Shown piece by piece: positions 40,307-45,556 of a stretch of 64,000 nucleotides of DNA. Every line of letters starts with the position of its first letter. Positions within the stretch are counted from its first letter, which is position 1. The notes beneath the pieces are model-generated. The model was not told the origin of the DNA and ran no database searches. It was given only the letters and a program-made list of their open reading frames with translations. The stretch spans positions 4,157,001 to 4,221,000 of the forward strand of contig NZ_CP132910.1 of NCBI RefSeq assembly GCF_030846775.1, in the 5' to 3' direction. Both the position numbers and the translations under genes were made by a program. Source of the DNA: Geothrix sp. 21YS21S-2 (GTDB lineage Bacteria; Acidobacteriota; Holophagae; Holophagales; Holophagaceae).

Positions 40307-41197
40307 ATGCCCCGTCCGAAGATCCTGATCGTGGAAGACGACGACCTCACCTCGTCCCTGCTCAAAGGCACGCTGGCGCGGGAGGGCTACGACATCACCC
40401 TGGCCGGCGACGGGCTCGCGGCCCTGGACATCCTGGGCGACGATTCCGGGTTCGCCGCCGTGCTCCTGGACCGCCTCATGCCCCGCATGGACGGGCTCGA
40501 GGTCCTCAAGCGGATGAAGGCCACCCCGGGGTTCAAGGACATCCCCGTGGTGCTCGAGACGGCGCTGGACGGCGAAGGGGACATCCGGGAGGGGCTGAAG
40601 GCCGGCGCGCTGCACTACCTGGTCAAGCCGCTCGACCCCCGGATGGTGGTCCAGGTGGTGGACTCGGCGGTGCGGGAATTCGAGACGAGGAAGAAGCTCT
40701 ACGCCGAACTCGACAGCATCCGCGCCGCCATGGGCCTGGTGCGCCGGGGCGTCTTCCACGTGCACACCCTCGAGCAGTGCGGGGACCTGGCCGCGCTGCT
40801 GGCCAAGGCCTGCCCGGATCCCAGGCGCTCCGTGACCGGGATCCTGGAGCTGCTGGTCAATGCCGTGGAGCACGGCAACCTGGGGATCACCTACGAGGAG
40901 AAGACCGAGCTCATCGCCTCCCACGAATGGGCGGGCGAGATCGAGCGCCGCCAGGAGCTTCCCCGGAACCGCAAGCGGCGGGTGGAGGTCACCCTGACGC
41001 GCCTGGCCGCAGCCACCCGGATCCGGATCCAGGACATGGGCGAAGGGTTTCACTGGCAGGACTTCGAGGGCGTCAACCCGGGCCGGATGTTCGACAGCCA
41101 CGGGCGGGGCATCCTCCTGGCCAAGTGGGAGGCCTTCGACCGGGTGGAGTACCTCGGGAACGGCAACTGCGTCGTGGCGGAAATCGCCCACACCTAG
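40307..41197 (+). CDS. Receiver domain fused to RsbW-type HATPase domain
   Basis: 296 residues; ATG preceded by GGAGGAG. Residues 1-125 are a receiver domain (D11/D12 in IVEDDDLT, phospho-site D55 in VLLDRLMPRMDG, K107 in YLVKPLD). Residues about 165-296 are a GHKL ATPase of the anti-sigma/RsbW kind: ELLVNAVEHGNLG (E181, N185), IQDMGEGFHWQ and DSHGRGILLAKWE. There is no phospho-acceptor histidine domain, so it is not a normal kinase. Phosphorylation of the receiver probably controls anti-sigma or serine-kinase activity, a partner-switching mechanism. No sigma factor or STAS gene lies beside it. It is convergent with the radical SAM gene, the stop codons being adjacent. Confidence 0.85.
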   Translation: MPRPKILIVEDDDLTSSLLKGTLAREGYDITLAGDGLAALDILGDDSGFAAVLLDRLMPRMDGLEVLKRMKATPGFKDIPVVLETALDGEGDIREGLKAGALHYLVKPLDPRMVVQVVDSAVREFETRKKLYAELDSIRAAMGLVRRGVFHVHTLEQCGDLAALLAKACPDPRRSVTGILELLVNAVEHGNLGITYEEKTELIASHEWAGEIERRQELPRNRKRRVEVTLTRLAAATRIRIQDMGEGFHWQDFEGVNPGRMFDSHGRGILLAKWEAFDRVEYLGNGNCVVAEIAHT

Positions 41198-42262
41198 CTA
41201 GTTGAGCCCGAACCTCCGGTGGTGGCAGACCTTCGGCGCCCGCCCCCCGGGTTCCCACAGGTGGAAGGCGTTGCCCTGGCACAGGCCCCACTCTCCGCAC
41301 GCGGAGCAGTCCCCCTGGCGCATCCAGCTCCGGTCGCGGAAGGCCTGGAAGCGGGTGTTCCACACGTCCATGAAGGCGTCCCGGTGGATGTTGCCCTGCG
41401 CGAACCGGCGGTCGATGTTGGGACAGGCCAGGACCGCCCCGTCCACCATGATCCCGCCGATGTTGATGCCCGCGCGGCAGAAGTAGGGCTGGTCCCGCAC
41501 CCGGCACTCGAAGCGGCCCAGGAAGCCGGATTCCGCGTAGACCACGTCCAGGCCTCCGCGCGCGCGGAAGCCCTCGATGCGCTCCATGAGGGTCCGGAAT
41601 TCCTCCGCCGCCAGCAGCAGGGCGGGATCCTCCGCGGCGCGGCCGATGGGGTCGATGGTGAAGATGCGCCAGTGCTTCAGGCCGGCCTCCATGAGTAAGG
41701 TCCGGAAGGCCTCCAGCCGGGGCAGGTTGCGGGGGTTCACGCAGGTCACCACGTCCAGGGCCTGCCAGAAGGGGTCCGCCAGCAGGCCCTTGAGGGTCGC
41801 CAGGGCCCCGCGGAAGGAGCCCTCCCGGCCCCGGAGCCAGTCGTGGTCCTCCTCGAAGCCGTCCAGGCTCACGGTGACGCTGGCCATGGACGCGGCCTTG
41901 GCGGAGGCGAAGGCCTGCGGGCCCCAGGCCAGACCGTTGGTGACCATCCCCCAGGGGAAGCCCAGCCGGTGGATGGCGGCGCCCAGGTCGAAGACGCCGG
42001 GGTAGCAGAGGGGTTCGCCCCCGGAGAGGACCACCATGACCCCGTGGGGGTCCTGGGCCGCGGCGATGCCCTCCAGGGCGCGGAGCACCGCCTCCCGGGG
42101 CAGGGGCGGCGCGGTGGCGTCGCGGGTGCAGTCGCTGCCGCAGTGCCGGCAGGCCAGGTTGCAGGCCCGGGTGAGCTCCACGAAGAGGTAGGAGAGGCGA
42201 TGGTGCCGCGCCTCCAGGCGCCGGAAGGACGGCAGCAGGGCGCGCCGGAGCCAGGGCCTCAC
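41198..42262 (-). CDS. Radical SAM/SPASM protein (TIGR04133-like)
   Basis: 354 residues from the GTG at 42262-42260, which overlaps the stop of the lipoprotein gene (GTGA). The radical SAM cluster CxxxCxxC is ACNLACRHCGSDC (C34, C38, C41), with SGGEPLCYPG as the SAM-binding GGE motif. The C-terminus carries cysteines for auxiliary clusters (VLACPNIDRRFAQGN, then DCSACGEWGLCQGNAFH, then KVCHHRRF), a SPASM-type domain as in peptide-modifying maturases. The combination with the small lipoprotein matches what is named TIGR04133/TIGR04134, a pair of unknown chemistry known in several anaerobes. It likely modifies the lipoprotein before export. The longer open frame upstream is the lipoprotein gene read out of frame. 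Confidence 0.88.
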   Translation of the reverse strand: MRPWLRRALLPSFRRLEARHHRLSYLFVELTRACNLACRHCGSDCTRDATAPPLPREAVLRALEGIAAAQDPHGVMVVLSGGEPLCYPGVFDLGAAIHRLGFPWGMVTNGLAWGPQAFASAKAASMASVTVSLDGFEEDHDWLRGREGSFRGALATLKGLLADPFWQALDVVTCVNPRNLPRLEAFRTLLMEAGLKHWRIFTIDPIGRAAEDPALLLAAEEFRTLMERIEGFRARGGLDVVYAESGFLGRFECRVRDQPYFCRAGINIGGIMVDGAVLACPNIDRRFAQGNIHRDAFMDVWNTRFQAFRDRSWMRQGDCSACGEWGLCQGNAFHLWEPGGRAPKVCHHRRFGLN

Positions 42263-42687
42263 GGCCTGGCCAGCTTGATGGCCAGGCCCTCCTGCTCCCA
42301 GGCGCCATAGAAGAACCTGCCGTCCCCGGGGGCGGTCTGGACGAGGTTCAGGGTGACCGTCGCCTGGCTGTAGGCGCCATTGGCGGCGCCGTCCACATCG
42401 GTGGCCGTCAGGGGGCAGGACGGGCAGTACCAGCCGGTCCAGGTGAAGGAGAAGACGCCGTCCGCGCCCGACCTGGCCGTGGCGCCCTGGAAGTCCACCC
42501 GGATGCCCGGGACGGGCAGGCCCGTGGCGGCGTCGGTGACGGTGCCGCCCACCCTGTAGGTGGCCGACGGCGTGCCATAGGTGGGCACGGGGGCCCCGTA
42601 GGCGGGCGTGCCGCCCACGCAGCTCACCACGGCGATGCCCAGGGCGGAACCCAGGCACCGCATGAGCCACTGCTCAAACCGATTCAT
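42259..42687 (-). CDS. Radical SAM-associated putative lipoprotein (likely maturase substrate or partner)
   Basis: 142 residues, with CCCCGGAGG before the ATG. A lipoprotein signal ends at C23 (lipobox VVSC). Next comes a short Tyr/Gly/Pro segment (PAYGAPVPTYGTPSATYRVG) that matches the hallmark of radical SAM-associated lipoproteins, then a carboxypeptidase-regulatory-like beta-sandwich (GGTVTDAATGLPVPGIRVDF and ATDVDGAANGAYSQATVTLN) and a CxxC (WYCPSC). The family is predicted to be lipid-anchored and possibly modified on the Tyr/Gly segment. The gene precedes and overlaps the radical SAM gene by 4 bases, so the two products are made together. Confidence 0.82.
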   Translation of the reverse strand: MNRFEQWLMRCLGSALGIAVVSCVGGTPAYGAPVPTYGTPSATYRVGGTVTDAATGLPVPGIRVDFQGATARSGADGVFSFTWTGWYCPSCPLTATDVDGAANGAYSQATVTLNLVQTAPGDGRFFYGAWEQEGLAIKLARP

Positions 42688-42727
42688 GGTCGCCTCCGGG
42701 GATAGGACGATTGTGCCACCGTTCCGG

Positions 42728-43321
42728 TCAGAACGTCCGGCCTGTCTCCCGGGCCCGGAGCAGGAGCTCCGCCCGCACCTCGGGCGCGTTCCCCGACAGG
42801 CCGCCCAGCAGCTCCAGCCGGGCCTCCGGGATGCCCACGCCCAGCAGGCGGTCCTCCACCATCACGCGGTGGTGGGCCTCCCGGAGGCCCAGGGCGTCGA
42901 GCTTCTCGTCGGTGTGGCCCGCCGGGCAGAGGGCCAGGGCCTTGCGCACGGGCAGGCGGGTGGTGCGGCTGCGGTCGGCCTCGTAGGCGTAGGCATAGCC
43001 GTAGGTCCACACCCGGTCGAACCAGCCCTTGAGGATGGCGGGCACGTCGGACCACCAGAAGGGGTAGCAGAACACCAGACCCTCGGCCCGGTCCAGCCGC
43101 GCCTGCTCCGCCACCACGTCCGCCGGGCGAAGCGCCGCCGGGTCCAGGGCCGTCTCCAGCCCGAACTGGGCCTCGGCCAGGAGGGGGTCGAAGCCCTCCT
43201 GGTAGAGGTCGGCGAATTCCAGAGTGTGCCCGGCCTCCCGCAGGCCCTCGGCGAAGGCCGCGGCCACCTCCCCGGTGAAGGAAGCCCGGCGCGGATGGGC
43301 GAAAATGAGCAGGACATGCAT
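42728..43321 (-). CDS. NAD(P)H-dependent flavodoxin-fold oxidoreductase (YwrO/MdaB type)
   Basis: 197 residues from the ATG at 43321-43319, preceded by CTGGAGGAG. The opening HVLLIFAHPRRASFTG is the flavin-phosphate loop of the NQO/YwrO/KefF-type reductases; FCYPFWWSDVPAILKGWFDR and the segment GYAYAYEAD are also typical. These FMN/FAD enzymes reduce quinones and nitro compounds by two electrons. The gene is divergent from the DHCW cupin gene, with 43 bases between the start codons, and probably shares a control region with it. Confidence 0.87.
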   Translation of the reverse strand: MHVLLIFAHPRRASFTGEVAAAFAEGLREAGHTLEFADLYQEGFDPLLAEAQFGLETALDPAALRPADVVAEQARLDRAEGLVFCYPFWWSDVPAILKGWFDRVWTYGYAYAYEADRSRTTRLPVRKALALCPAGHTDEKLDALGLREAHHRVMVEDRLLGVGIPEARLELLGGLSGNAPEVRAELLLRARETGRTF

Positions 43322-43364
43322 GAAAAAGCTCCTCCAGGCAGAGAATGGAACAAGGAGACCGACG

Positions 43365-43694
43365 ATGCAAATGACCGATATCCCCTTCGCCGCCACCGAC
43401 TGGTCCCAGGTGGAACCCACCGAGCATCCCGGCGTTACCGGCCGGGCCCTCTGGCGCACCCGCCAGTTCGGCGCCATCCGGGTGCGCATGGTGGAGTATT
43501 CCCCCGGCTACCTGGCGGACCACTGGTGCTCCAAGGGCCACGTGCTGCTCTGCCTGGAGGGGGAGCTGCACACGGAACTGGAGGACGGACGGAGGTTCGT
43601 CCTGCGGCCCGGGATGAGCTACCAGGTGGCGGACCAGGCCGAGGCCCACCGGTCCGCGGCGCCTTCCGGGGCGAGGCTCTTCATCGTGGATTGA
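43365..43694 (+). CDS. DHCW-motif cupin-fold protein
   Basis: 109 residues; ATG preceded by CAAGGAGA. The motif YLADHWCSKGHVLLCLEGEL gives the family its name, and the whole chain is a single small beta-barrel (GELHTELEDGRRFVLRPGMS). Function unknown; the family may bind a metal through the His and Cys. It overlaps the convergent LysR gene by 14 bases and is divergent from the flavodoxin-fold reductase. Confidence 0.83.
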   Translation: MQMTDIPFAATDWSQVEPTEHPGVTGRALWRTRQFGAIRVRMVEYSPGYLADHWCSKGHVLLCLEGELHTELEDGRRFVLRPGMSYQVADQAEAHRSAAPSGARLFIVD

Positions 43695-44574
43695 GGTGCT
43701 CCAGGAGCATCCGAACGGGCTTGGCGGCGGCGCGCACATCCCTCAGGCCCAGGAGGAGGTGGCGCTCAGCCCAGGGCTCGGCCAGGGTGACGAGGCGCAG
43801 GTCCAGGGACGCCACCATGGCCTTGACGGCGTTGCGGGGCAGCACGGCCACGCCCATGCCGGCGGCCACCATCAGGCACACCGCGTCGAAGCTGCGCACC
43901 TGGATGCGCAGCTTCAGGGTGCGGCCCATGGCCTCGGACTCGGTCTTCATGCGCTTGGCCAGGGACGTGGCCCGGGGCAGGCTGACGAAATCGTAGTCCA
44001 CCAGGTCCTCGAGGCGCACGGAGCGCCTGCGGGCGAGGGGGTGGCCGCGGGGCACCACCACGGCCAGGCGGTCCTCCCGGTAGGGCAGCACCTGCAGCCC
44101 CAGGGCGGGGGTGCGGTCGGCGAAGATGCCCAGGTCGGCCCGGCCGTCCAGCAGGGCCAGGACGATCTCGGAGCTGTTCTGCTCCTCCAGCTCGATGCGG
44201 ATGCCGGGGTTGGCGGCGGCGAAGGAAGCCAGGTCGCCCGGGAGGAACTGCGTGACCGCGGAGATGTTGGCCCAGAGCCGCACCACGCCCAGGCTGCCCG
44301 AGGCGTAGTCGGAAAGGTCGGCCACCAGCAGGTCCACGTCGCTGAGGACGCGGTGGGCGTGCTGGAGCAGGGACTGGCCGGCGGGCGTGAGGGCCACGCC
44401 CCGGGAGGACCGTTTCAGCAGCTCGGCGCCCAGGGTCGCTTCCAGGTCGGACAGCCGCTTGCTGGCGGCCCCCACCGCCAGGTTGGCCAGCCCGGCCCCC
44501 TTGCTGATGCTGCCCGTGCGCGCCACCAGGGTGAACAGCGACAGGGAGGCCAGGTCAACGCGGGGGACGTTCAT
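43681..44574 (-). CDS. LysR-family transcriptional regulator
   Basis: 297 residues from the ATG at 44574-44572; AGGAGGG upstream is too close to the GTG at 44583 for that to be the start. Residues 1-60 are the winged HTH (LSLFTLVARTGSISKGAGLA, then NLAVGAASKRLSDLEATLG). Residues 90-290 are the co-inducer-binding domain (VRLWANISAVTQFLPGDLAS, VVVPRGHPLA, MVAAGMGVAVLPRNAV). It is the last gene of a five-gene minus-strand run with the dehydrogenase, lyase, CoA-transferase and MFS genes, so it probably regulates that pathway. LysR genes are usually divergent from their targets; being at the operon end is less common. Confidence 0.88.
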   Translation of the reverse strand: MNVPRVDLASLSLFTLVARTGSISKGAGLANLAVGAASKRLSDLEATLGAELLKRSSRGVALTPAGQSLLQHAHRVLSDVDLLVADLSDYASGSLGVVRLWANISAVTQFLPGDLASFAAANPGIRIELEEQNSSEIVLALLDGRADLGIFADRTPALGLQVLPYREDRLAVVVPRGHPLARRRSVRLEDLVDYDFVSLPRATSLAKRMKTESEAMGRTLKLRIQVRSFDAVCLMVAAGMGVAVLPRNAVKAMVASLDLRLVTLAEPWAERHLLLGLRDVRAAAKPVRMLLEHLNPR

Positions 44575-44587
44575 GGCGGGCACCCTC

Positions 44588-45556
44588 CTAGAGCACGGCC
44601 GGGTTGACGCAGGTCTGGGGGGGCTTGCCCGCCAGCACGCTCAGGACGTTGTCCACCGCGGTCATGCCCATGGCCAGCCGGGTCCGGAAGGTGGCCGAGG
44701 CCGTGTGGGGCACGATGACCACGTTCTCCAGGCCGGCCAGACCGGGCGTCAGGCGGGGCTCGTTCTCGAAGACGTCCAGGCCCGCGCCCCAGATGACCTT
44801 GTCCCTCAGGGCGGCGACGAGCGCCTCCTCGTCCACCAGCGGGCCGCGTCCGGTGTTGACGAGGACGGCGGTGGGCTTCATGGCGGCCAGTTCGGCGGCG
44901 CCGATGAAGTGGCGGGTGGCGGGCAGCAGGGGCAGGTGGAGGGAGAGGAAGTCCGATTCGCGCAGCAGGGTGGCCTTGTCCACGAAGATGGCCCCGCACG
45001 TCCGCTCCAGTTCGGGCGACGGCTGGAGGTCGTGGTAGATCACCCGCATGTCGAAGGCGGCCGCCTTGGCCGCGAACTTCGAGCCGATGCGGCCCGCGCC
45101 GGCCACGCCCAGGGTCATGTGGTCCACGTCCCGGCCCAGGAACTGCAGGGGCCCCCAGCCGGCCCACTGGCCCGAGCGCAGGAAGCGCTCGGTCTCGGGG
45201 ATGCGGCGGGCGGCGGCCAGCAGCAGGGCCCAGGCGTGGGTGGCGGTGGCCTCGTCCAGCACCTTGGGCGTGTTGGTGAGGATCACCCCGCGCGCCGTGG
45301 CGGCGTCCACGTCGAAGTTGTTGTAGCCGACCGCGTAGTTCGCGAAGATCCGGCACCGGGGCCCCGCGGCGTCCAGCACCTCGCCGTCGATGGTGTCGGT
45401 GAGCAGGGTGATGACGGCGTCCCGGCCGCGCACCTCCCGCAGCAGCTCCTCCCGGGTCAGCGGCCGGTCGTGGGGGTTGATGTCCACGTCATGGCAGCGG
45501 CGCAGGGCGTCGAGGGGTTCCTGGGGGAGCATGCGGGTGACGTAGACGTTGGCCAT
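44588..45556 (-). CDS. D-2-hydroxyacid dehydrogenase (glyoxylate reductase/D-glycerate dehydrogenase type)
   Basis: 322 residues. NAD-binding loop GVAGAGRIGSKFAAKA (GxGxxG as GAGRIG); substrate arginine in VNTGRGPLVDEEALV; catalytic E in FENEPRL and H in VVIVPHTASATFRTR. The N-terminal catalytic lobe includes NYAVGYNNFDVDAATARGV, close to glyoxylate reductases of the plant/archaeal type. It interconverts a 2-keto acid and its D-hydroxy acid. Its position behind the CoA-transferase and lyase genes suggests it handles a 2-oxoacid made by that pathway or from the same substrate pool, but the specific acid is not known. Confidence 0.87.
   Translation of the reverse strand: MANVYVTRMLPQEPLDALRRCHDVDINPHDRPLTREELLREVRGRDAVITLLTDTIDGEVLDAAGPRCRIFANYAVGYNNFDVDAATARGVILTNTPKVLDEATATHAWALLLAAARRIPETERFLRSGQWAGWGPLQFLGRDVDHMTLGVAGAGRIGSKFAAKAAAFDMRVIYHDLQPSPELERTCGAIFVDKATLLRESDFLSLHLPLLPATRHFIGAAELAAMKPTAVLVNTGRGPLVDEEALVAALRDKVIWGAGLDVFENEPRLTPGLAGLENVVIVPHTASATFRTRLAMGMTAVDNVLSVLAGKPPQTCVNPAVL

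Follow-up and report, generated by a model that had tools for sequence, protein, structure and literature searches.

The window analysed here, 64,000 nucleotides of contig NZ_CP132910.1 from Geothrix sp. 21YS21S-2, carries two overlapping genes on its minus strand between positions 41198 and 42687, whose translations give a lipoprotein first and a radical SAM/SPASM enzyme second. The stop codon of the former and the GTG start of the latter overlap in GTGA, an arrangement that suggests translational coupling. The features of the locus are listed below; the overlap, the signal peptide, the first X-Tyr-Gly site and the ribosome-binding site are read directly from the sequence.

41182..44590, no strand: accessory segment holding the enzyme/lipoprotein pair (28 bases there in congener G002)
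41198..42262, minus: radical SAM/SPASM enzyme, 354 aa, GTG start; TIGR04133, 386 bits; Radical_SAM and SPASM domains; C34xxxC38xxC41, invariant C45 and six C-terminal cysteines
42259..42262, minus: GTGA overlap of lipoprotein stop and enzyme GTG start, with putative translational coupling
42259..42687, minus: lipoprotein, 142 aa, probable substrate; TIGR04134, 44.5 bits (cut-off 39.8); lipobox AVVSC; transthyretin-like β-sandwich
42271..42567, minus: β-sandwich domain, residues 41-139; pLDDT mostly >90; like the transthyretin-like domain of carboxypeptidase D (5aq0)
42568..42582, minus: conserved X-Tyr-Gly-x-Pro site T36-Y37-G38-T39-P40 (alignment), in a linker modelled with low confidence (flexible)
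42595..42603, minus: first X-Tyr-Gly site, A29-Y30-G31 (AYGAP), an extra copy that is unaligned with homologues
42619..42687, minus: signal peptide and lipid-anchor Cys23 (codon 42619-42621)
42693..42697, minus: ribosome-binding site GGAGG, 5 nt upstream of the ATG of the lipoprotein

On the plus strand, a receiver/HATPase open reading frame ends at 41197, adjoining the enzyme's last base at 41198 as the initial annotation had described. We rejected this regulator as a component of the system: no third gene recurs beside enzyme and partner across related loci, and the congener G002 has the regulator but lacks the pair. There, 28 bases separate the regulator and hydroxyacid dehydrogenase genes, against 3409 bases in the window, which comprise the pair and a small number of further genes; in G005, different DNA occupies this site. 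The pair is thus accessory and was probably acquired. Two stretches of the segment, 42767-43320 and 43354-43692, have homologues at other places in G003.

The lipoprotein and its enzyme

The lipoprotein begins with a charged N terminus and a hydrophobic stretch leading to the lipobox with Cys23, in agreement with the lipid-anchored surface product proposed earlier. It carries the segment PAYGAPVPTYGTPSATYRVG; the linker after the lipobox holds PAYGAPVPTYGTP and is followed by the β-sandwich. Two X-Tyr-Gly-x-Pro sites, AYGAP and TYGTP, therefore lie in a flexible linker behind the lipid anchor. The predicted structure is confident from residue 41 onward and of low confidence at residues 21-40, which include both sites, as would be expected for a flexible linker. 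Structure comparison relates the domain to transthyretin-like domains, for example the one in carboxypeptidase D. The protein has no Pfam match and neither a Nif11 nor an NHLP leader, having a lipoprotein signal instead; it scores above the cut-off of TIGR04134 (lipo_with_rSAM) over residues 12-139. Translations, profiles and models thus bear out the lipobox, Tyr/Gly segment, β-sandwich and GTGA overlap of the initial annotation.

That annotation had further suggested that the enzyme acts on either the Tyr/Gly/Pro segment or a CxxC of the lipoprotein, and conservation separates the two. In an alignment of 20 TIGR04134-type proteins, Y37 is kept in 19, G38 in 18 and P40 in 18, whereas C88 and C91 of the window protein (in WYCPSCP) are not conserved. 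The Tyr/Gly/Pro segment is consequently the probable target, a view to which the occurrence of XYGxP in unrelated partners, described below, also contributes, and the CxxC is not. In a Parabacteroides distasonis lipoprotein with two similar domains (L140, 3144-3986), YGSP is kept solely in the linker that precedes the first domain; the motif thus seems to go with the linker rather than with the fold.

The enzyme matches TIGR04133 (rSAM_w_lipo) over nearly the whole profile (7-349 of 350) at 386.2 bits, with the next best family in the NCBIfam search at 111 bits. Assignment to the TIGR04133/TIGR04134 pair, also put forward earlier, holds for the lipoprotein and by closest family for the enzyme, which nevertheless falls short of the curated TIGR04133 cut-off of 425 bits. 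It lies inside the clade of TIGR04133 members in our tree (54 rows, support 100/99), and its neighbour is a TIGR04134 lipoprotein, as membership leads one to expect. Both NCBIfam models have the status of 'hypothetical equivalog', and none of the papers searched names TIGR04133 or a lipoprotein splicease.

Both Pfam domains, Radical_SAM and SPASM, are matched above their cut-offs, and the CxxxCxxC motif together with the SPASM cysteines places the protein in the radical SAM/SPASM superfamily. The cysteines C34, C38 and C41 of the SAM cluster (C34-x3-C38-x2-C41) are invariant in 33 homologues, as are C45, C262, C280, C319, C322, C328 and C346. Their spacing in the SPASM region is C262-x12-G-x4-C280, C319-x2-C322-x5-C328 and C346; the fourth cysteine of the SPASM CX2CX5CX3C is missing from the window enzyme. 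An AlphaFold2 model (pLDDT 93, 33 sequences) finds its nearest solved structures in SkfB, BlsE, anSME, SuiB and PqqE; the structural neighbours are all radical SAM proteins, and most are SPASM/twitch modifiers of peptides or proteins.

A motif common to unrelated partner proteins

The only second clear case of the enzyme among 60 nearby genomes is in G019 (308 bits), beside a small lipoprotein (locus L005). Lipoprotein homologues widespread without the enzyme, which by the initial annotation would tell against its reading, did not emerge: in a sample of 396 genomes of the phylum, the enzyme (E≤1e-60) and the lipoprotein (E≤1e-7) were both confined to this genome. A scan of genome contigs then provided 54 related loci (L042-L095) from Bacteroidales, Myxococcota, Spirochaetota, Planctomycetota, Alphaproteobacteria and others, with gut and rumen Bacteroidales contributing most TIGR04133-like members in the sample fetched. 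The window enzyme, that of L005 and those of the L042-L095 loci with a usable enzyme form one clade (support 100/99). Loci L006-L011 had come up first as TIGR04133 matches; L006 proved to be TIGR04103-like, with its relatives L007 and L008 grouping with it, and L009 and L010 look like other radical SAM proteins.

At 55 related loci, spread over several phyla, the enzyme's neighbours are proteins built on unrelated scaffolds, and nearly all contain X-Tyr-Gly-x-Pro in up to seven copies. The scaffolds include transthyretin-like (TIGR04134-type) lipoproteins, short acidic lipoproteins, OmpA-domain proteins, repeat lipoproteins, zinc ribbons and others. Short acidic lipoproteins carry LMYGVP in Alistipes, VYGPP in Muribaculaceae, where several genes stand in a row, and CYGPAP or LYGGP in Prevotellaceae. 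Myxococcales lipoproteins have five to seven KYGGP repeats, with up to seven copies of KYGGP/MYGGP, and alphaproteobacterial OmpA-domain partners have LYGPP and VYGVPP. In the zinc-ribbon partners of Planctomycetota and Bacillota (L088 3509-3817, L089 4358-4780, L090 4175-4594), which lack a signal peptide and stand beside TIGR04133-like enzymes, CIYGPPP lies between the ribbons. One Muribaculaceae locus (L063, upstream of 3392) combines four consecutive short lipoprotein genes, each with one or two VYGPP, with a single enzyme.

Residue X varies widely among the chosen sites (Lys, Met, Val, Glu, Ala, Cys and others; a descriptive statement only), and the residue after the glycine can itself be Gly, as in KYGGP. 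In some partners the Gly is replaced by Ala (LYAVP, MYATP) or the Pro is missing, and in several homologues CYG stands right at the lipobox. Counting either side and strand and XYAxP variants, only L057 (within the sequence available) and L094 (enzyme cut by contig end) have no motif partner.

In a motif-blind test on the longest open reading frame just upstream of each enzyme, 36 of 54 loci had XYG.{1,3}P; 1000 shuffles gave a mean of 4.0 and a maximum of 10, and among 14 loci with other radical SAM enzymes two had it. Among open reading frames with a lipobox, YGxP occurs in 22 of the 33 that adjoin the enzyme and in five of the 45 others in the same fetched loci, which served as the comparison set (Fisher p 5e-7, which understates the true value because the loci are related and so not independent). 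On the basis of this conservation and recurrence, we are fairly sure that X-Tyr-Gly-x-Pro is the modification site.

Relation to PlpXY spliceases

The recurring motif matches the splice site of PlpXY, which converts X in XYG, with MYG and LYG as natural sites, and which also acts on the tag GPIRPLYGLPI, or its GYG form, in other proteins (PMC10533398; PMC11002830). Splicing is reported to be broadly distributed, and the resulting β-residues to confer protease inhibition (PMC10373908; PMC11117315). The tag itself fits XYGxP. As in the PlpXY spliceases and spliceotides (Morinaka 2018), a radical SAM/SPASM enzyme stands beside an XYGxP substrate and no substrate cysteine is needed. The adjacent X-Tyr-Gly that marks the substrates of PlpX systems is found here in AYGAP and TYGTP, and family-wide elsewhere. 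In contrast to PlpXY, substrates of the window type are lipoproteins or folded proteins without a Nif11 or NHLP leader, and the enzymes have no RRE partner, carry the invariant extra Cys45 and form a separate clade. No PlpY-like RRE gene was detected at the window locus, although a diverged one could be missed, and the only PqqD-like gene is 73 kb away.

The TIGR04103-like enzymes form a sister group to the TIGR04133 clade (support 96/74, few outgroups). We provisionally take TIGR04103 to be the PlpX family, a reading to which the Nostoc sp. C057 locus contributes. In that locus, an enzyme annotated as TIGR04103 'nif11-class peptide radical SAM maturase 3' adjoins a Nif11 precursor ending in IALYGLPPELF, and a 71-aa protein sits where a PlpY-like RRE partner would stand. 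The window enzyme reaches 111 bits against TIGR04103, far under the curated cut-off of 725. That TIGR04103 is a steady second-best family holds for the window enzyme and fails across the TIGR04133 family, where AhbD, NirJ2 and TIGR04053 come at least as close, so this ranking was not used as proof of kinship.

In three genomes of the same class (L006-L008), small peptides ending PLYGVP, PLYGVV and PLYGVG lie beside TIGR04103-like enzymes. They are encoded divergently, on the opposite strand within 1.5 kb, share LLAEIEGTG-KVKT-VKAG and end around LYGV; they are likely to be unannotated spliceotide precursors.

The closest counterparts of the window locus are the Bacteroidales TIGR04133/TIGR04134 pairs, for example in Parabacteroides distasonis, which have the same gene order, the enzyme motif CxxxCxxCGSDC and the combination of lipobox, YGxP and transthyretin-like domain, with enzymes about 39-48% identical. 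The window pair differs in an enzyme under the curated cut-off, in having two XYG sites and in its occurrence outside Bacteroidota, where it is rare in its own phylum.

A proposed splicease-like modification

A motif common to unrelated scaffolds that coincides with the PlpXY splice site allows a specific chemistry to be proposed, and with related enzymes (TIGR04133, TIGR04103) sharing that motif, splicing is the most economical reading. With moderate confidence, we favour a two-gene, splicease-like system that modifies the lipoprotein at X-Tyr-Gly-x-Pro; the splicing reaction itself, argued by analogy with PlpXY, seems to us reasonably probable. The lipoprotein would be made in the cytoplasm and modified before export by the translationally coupled enzyme, at Thr36-Tyr37-Gly38-Thr-Pro and probably also at Ala29-Tyr30-Gly31-Ala-Pro. 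A tyramine piece (C8H9NO, 135.068 Da per site) would be cut from the backbone to leave a reactive β-amino acid. After export and lipidation at Cys23, the protein would display a reactive α-ketoamide on the flexible linker, between the membrane and the transthyretin-like domain. Its likeliest use would be covalent trapping of proteases, with X as the P1 residue; by analogy with the protease inhibition conferred by spliced residues, such a surface trap is a weakly supported suggestion.

The most serious competitor retains the substrate and the site and dispenses with splicing: Tyr or Gly could be changed by Cα oxidation, epimerisation, decarboxylation or a Tyr cross-link. The motif evidence fixes the site and not the reaction, SPASM enzymes perform many reactions, as the nearest structures (SkfB, BlsE, anSME, SuiB and PqqE) illustrate, and Ala replaces Gly in some partners. 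We nevertheless regard such chemistry as rather unlikely, given that the motif equals the PlpXY tag down to the proline and also equals the TIGR04103 precursors. Within this group, the free choice of X and the KYGGP sites are hard to square with a cyclophane or with a cross-linked X, and the KYGGP repeats, with Gly as the third residue, make a triceptide-type Y-G-X cyclophane impossible.

Two further readings were weighed. SPASM enzymes often form thioethers and the window protein contains WYCPSCP, so the enzyme might make a thioether or act elsewhere on the lipoprotein, at its CxxC or β-sandwich; given the lack of conservation of C88/C91, and the many partners that have neither the transthyretin-like domain nor a cysteine past the lipobox, we consider this very improbable. 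Nor does it seem at all likely that the enzyme leaves the lipoprotein unmodified, with the two co-expressed for some other reason and YGxP serving, for instance, as a lipoprotein-sorting or binding motif. The homologues with CYG right at the lipobox would suit that idea, but the motif also turns up in partners that lack a signal peptide, the zinc ribbons among them, the enzyme is the only thing common to the related loci, and the other genomes sampled from the phylum lack enzyme and lipoprotein alike.

Extending the splicing reading to the whole family, the TIGR04133 enzymes could be spliceases that need neither leader nor RRE and act on ordinary exported or folded proteins, with the TIGR04134-type lipoproteins as surface-anchored α-ketoamide protease traps whose specificity is set by X, a generalization that we advance tentatively and hold to be somewhat less than an even bet. 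Scott et al. 2022 (Chem) is reportedly a key paper on how widespread splicing is, and part of the TIGR04133/splicing link may already have been made there. The target motif common to unrelated partners gives an orphan enzyme family a chemistry testable by mass spectrometry. A loss of 135.068 Da at XYG would mean backbone β-amino acids in native lipoproteins, OmpA-domain proteins and zinc ribbons of common bacteria, and would make the TIGR04133 enzymes a simple two-gene means of introducing ketoamides into proteins.

Other systems bear a partial likeness to the window pair. Anaerobic sulfatase maturases (anSME), structural neighbours of the window enzyme, are SPASM enzymes that act on a protein destined for export; they differ in their target, a Cys or Ser that becomes formylglycine. 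The GDL-peptide systems (TIGR03913/DUF1843) have a related enzyme, and their substrates differ in being tiny peptides without a lipobox or Pro. In L144 (2156-2869) and L145 (2025-2740), such peptides beside TIGR03913-type enzymes show X-Tyr-(Gly/Ala/Met)-x near the N terminus (LYGGA, PYGVA, MYMAT, LYAAG, MYAAS), which may be the target of those enzymes too. Finally, lipoproteins with repeated Tyr-Met-Ala/Gly-(x)-Pro (YMAP, YMGPPP, YASP; YMxMAGM) are encoded just upstream of radical SAM enzymes that start at 4950 in L096 and L097 and score highest against TIGR04103 and TIGR03913; this is a parallel system of radical SAM enzyme and lipoprotein in which the motif differs.
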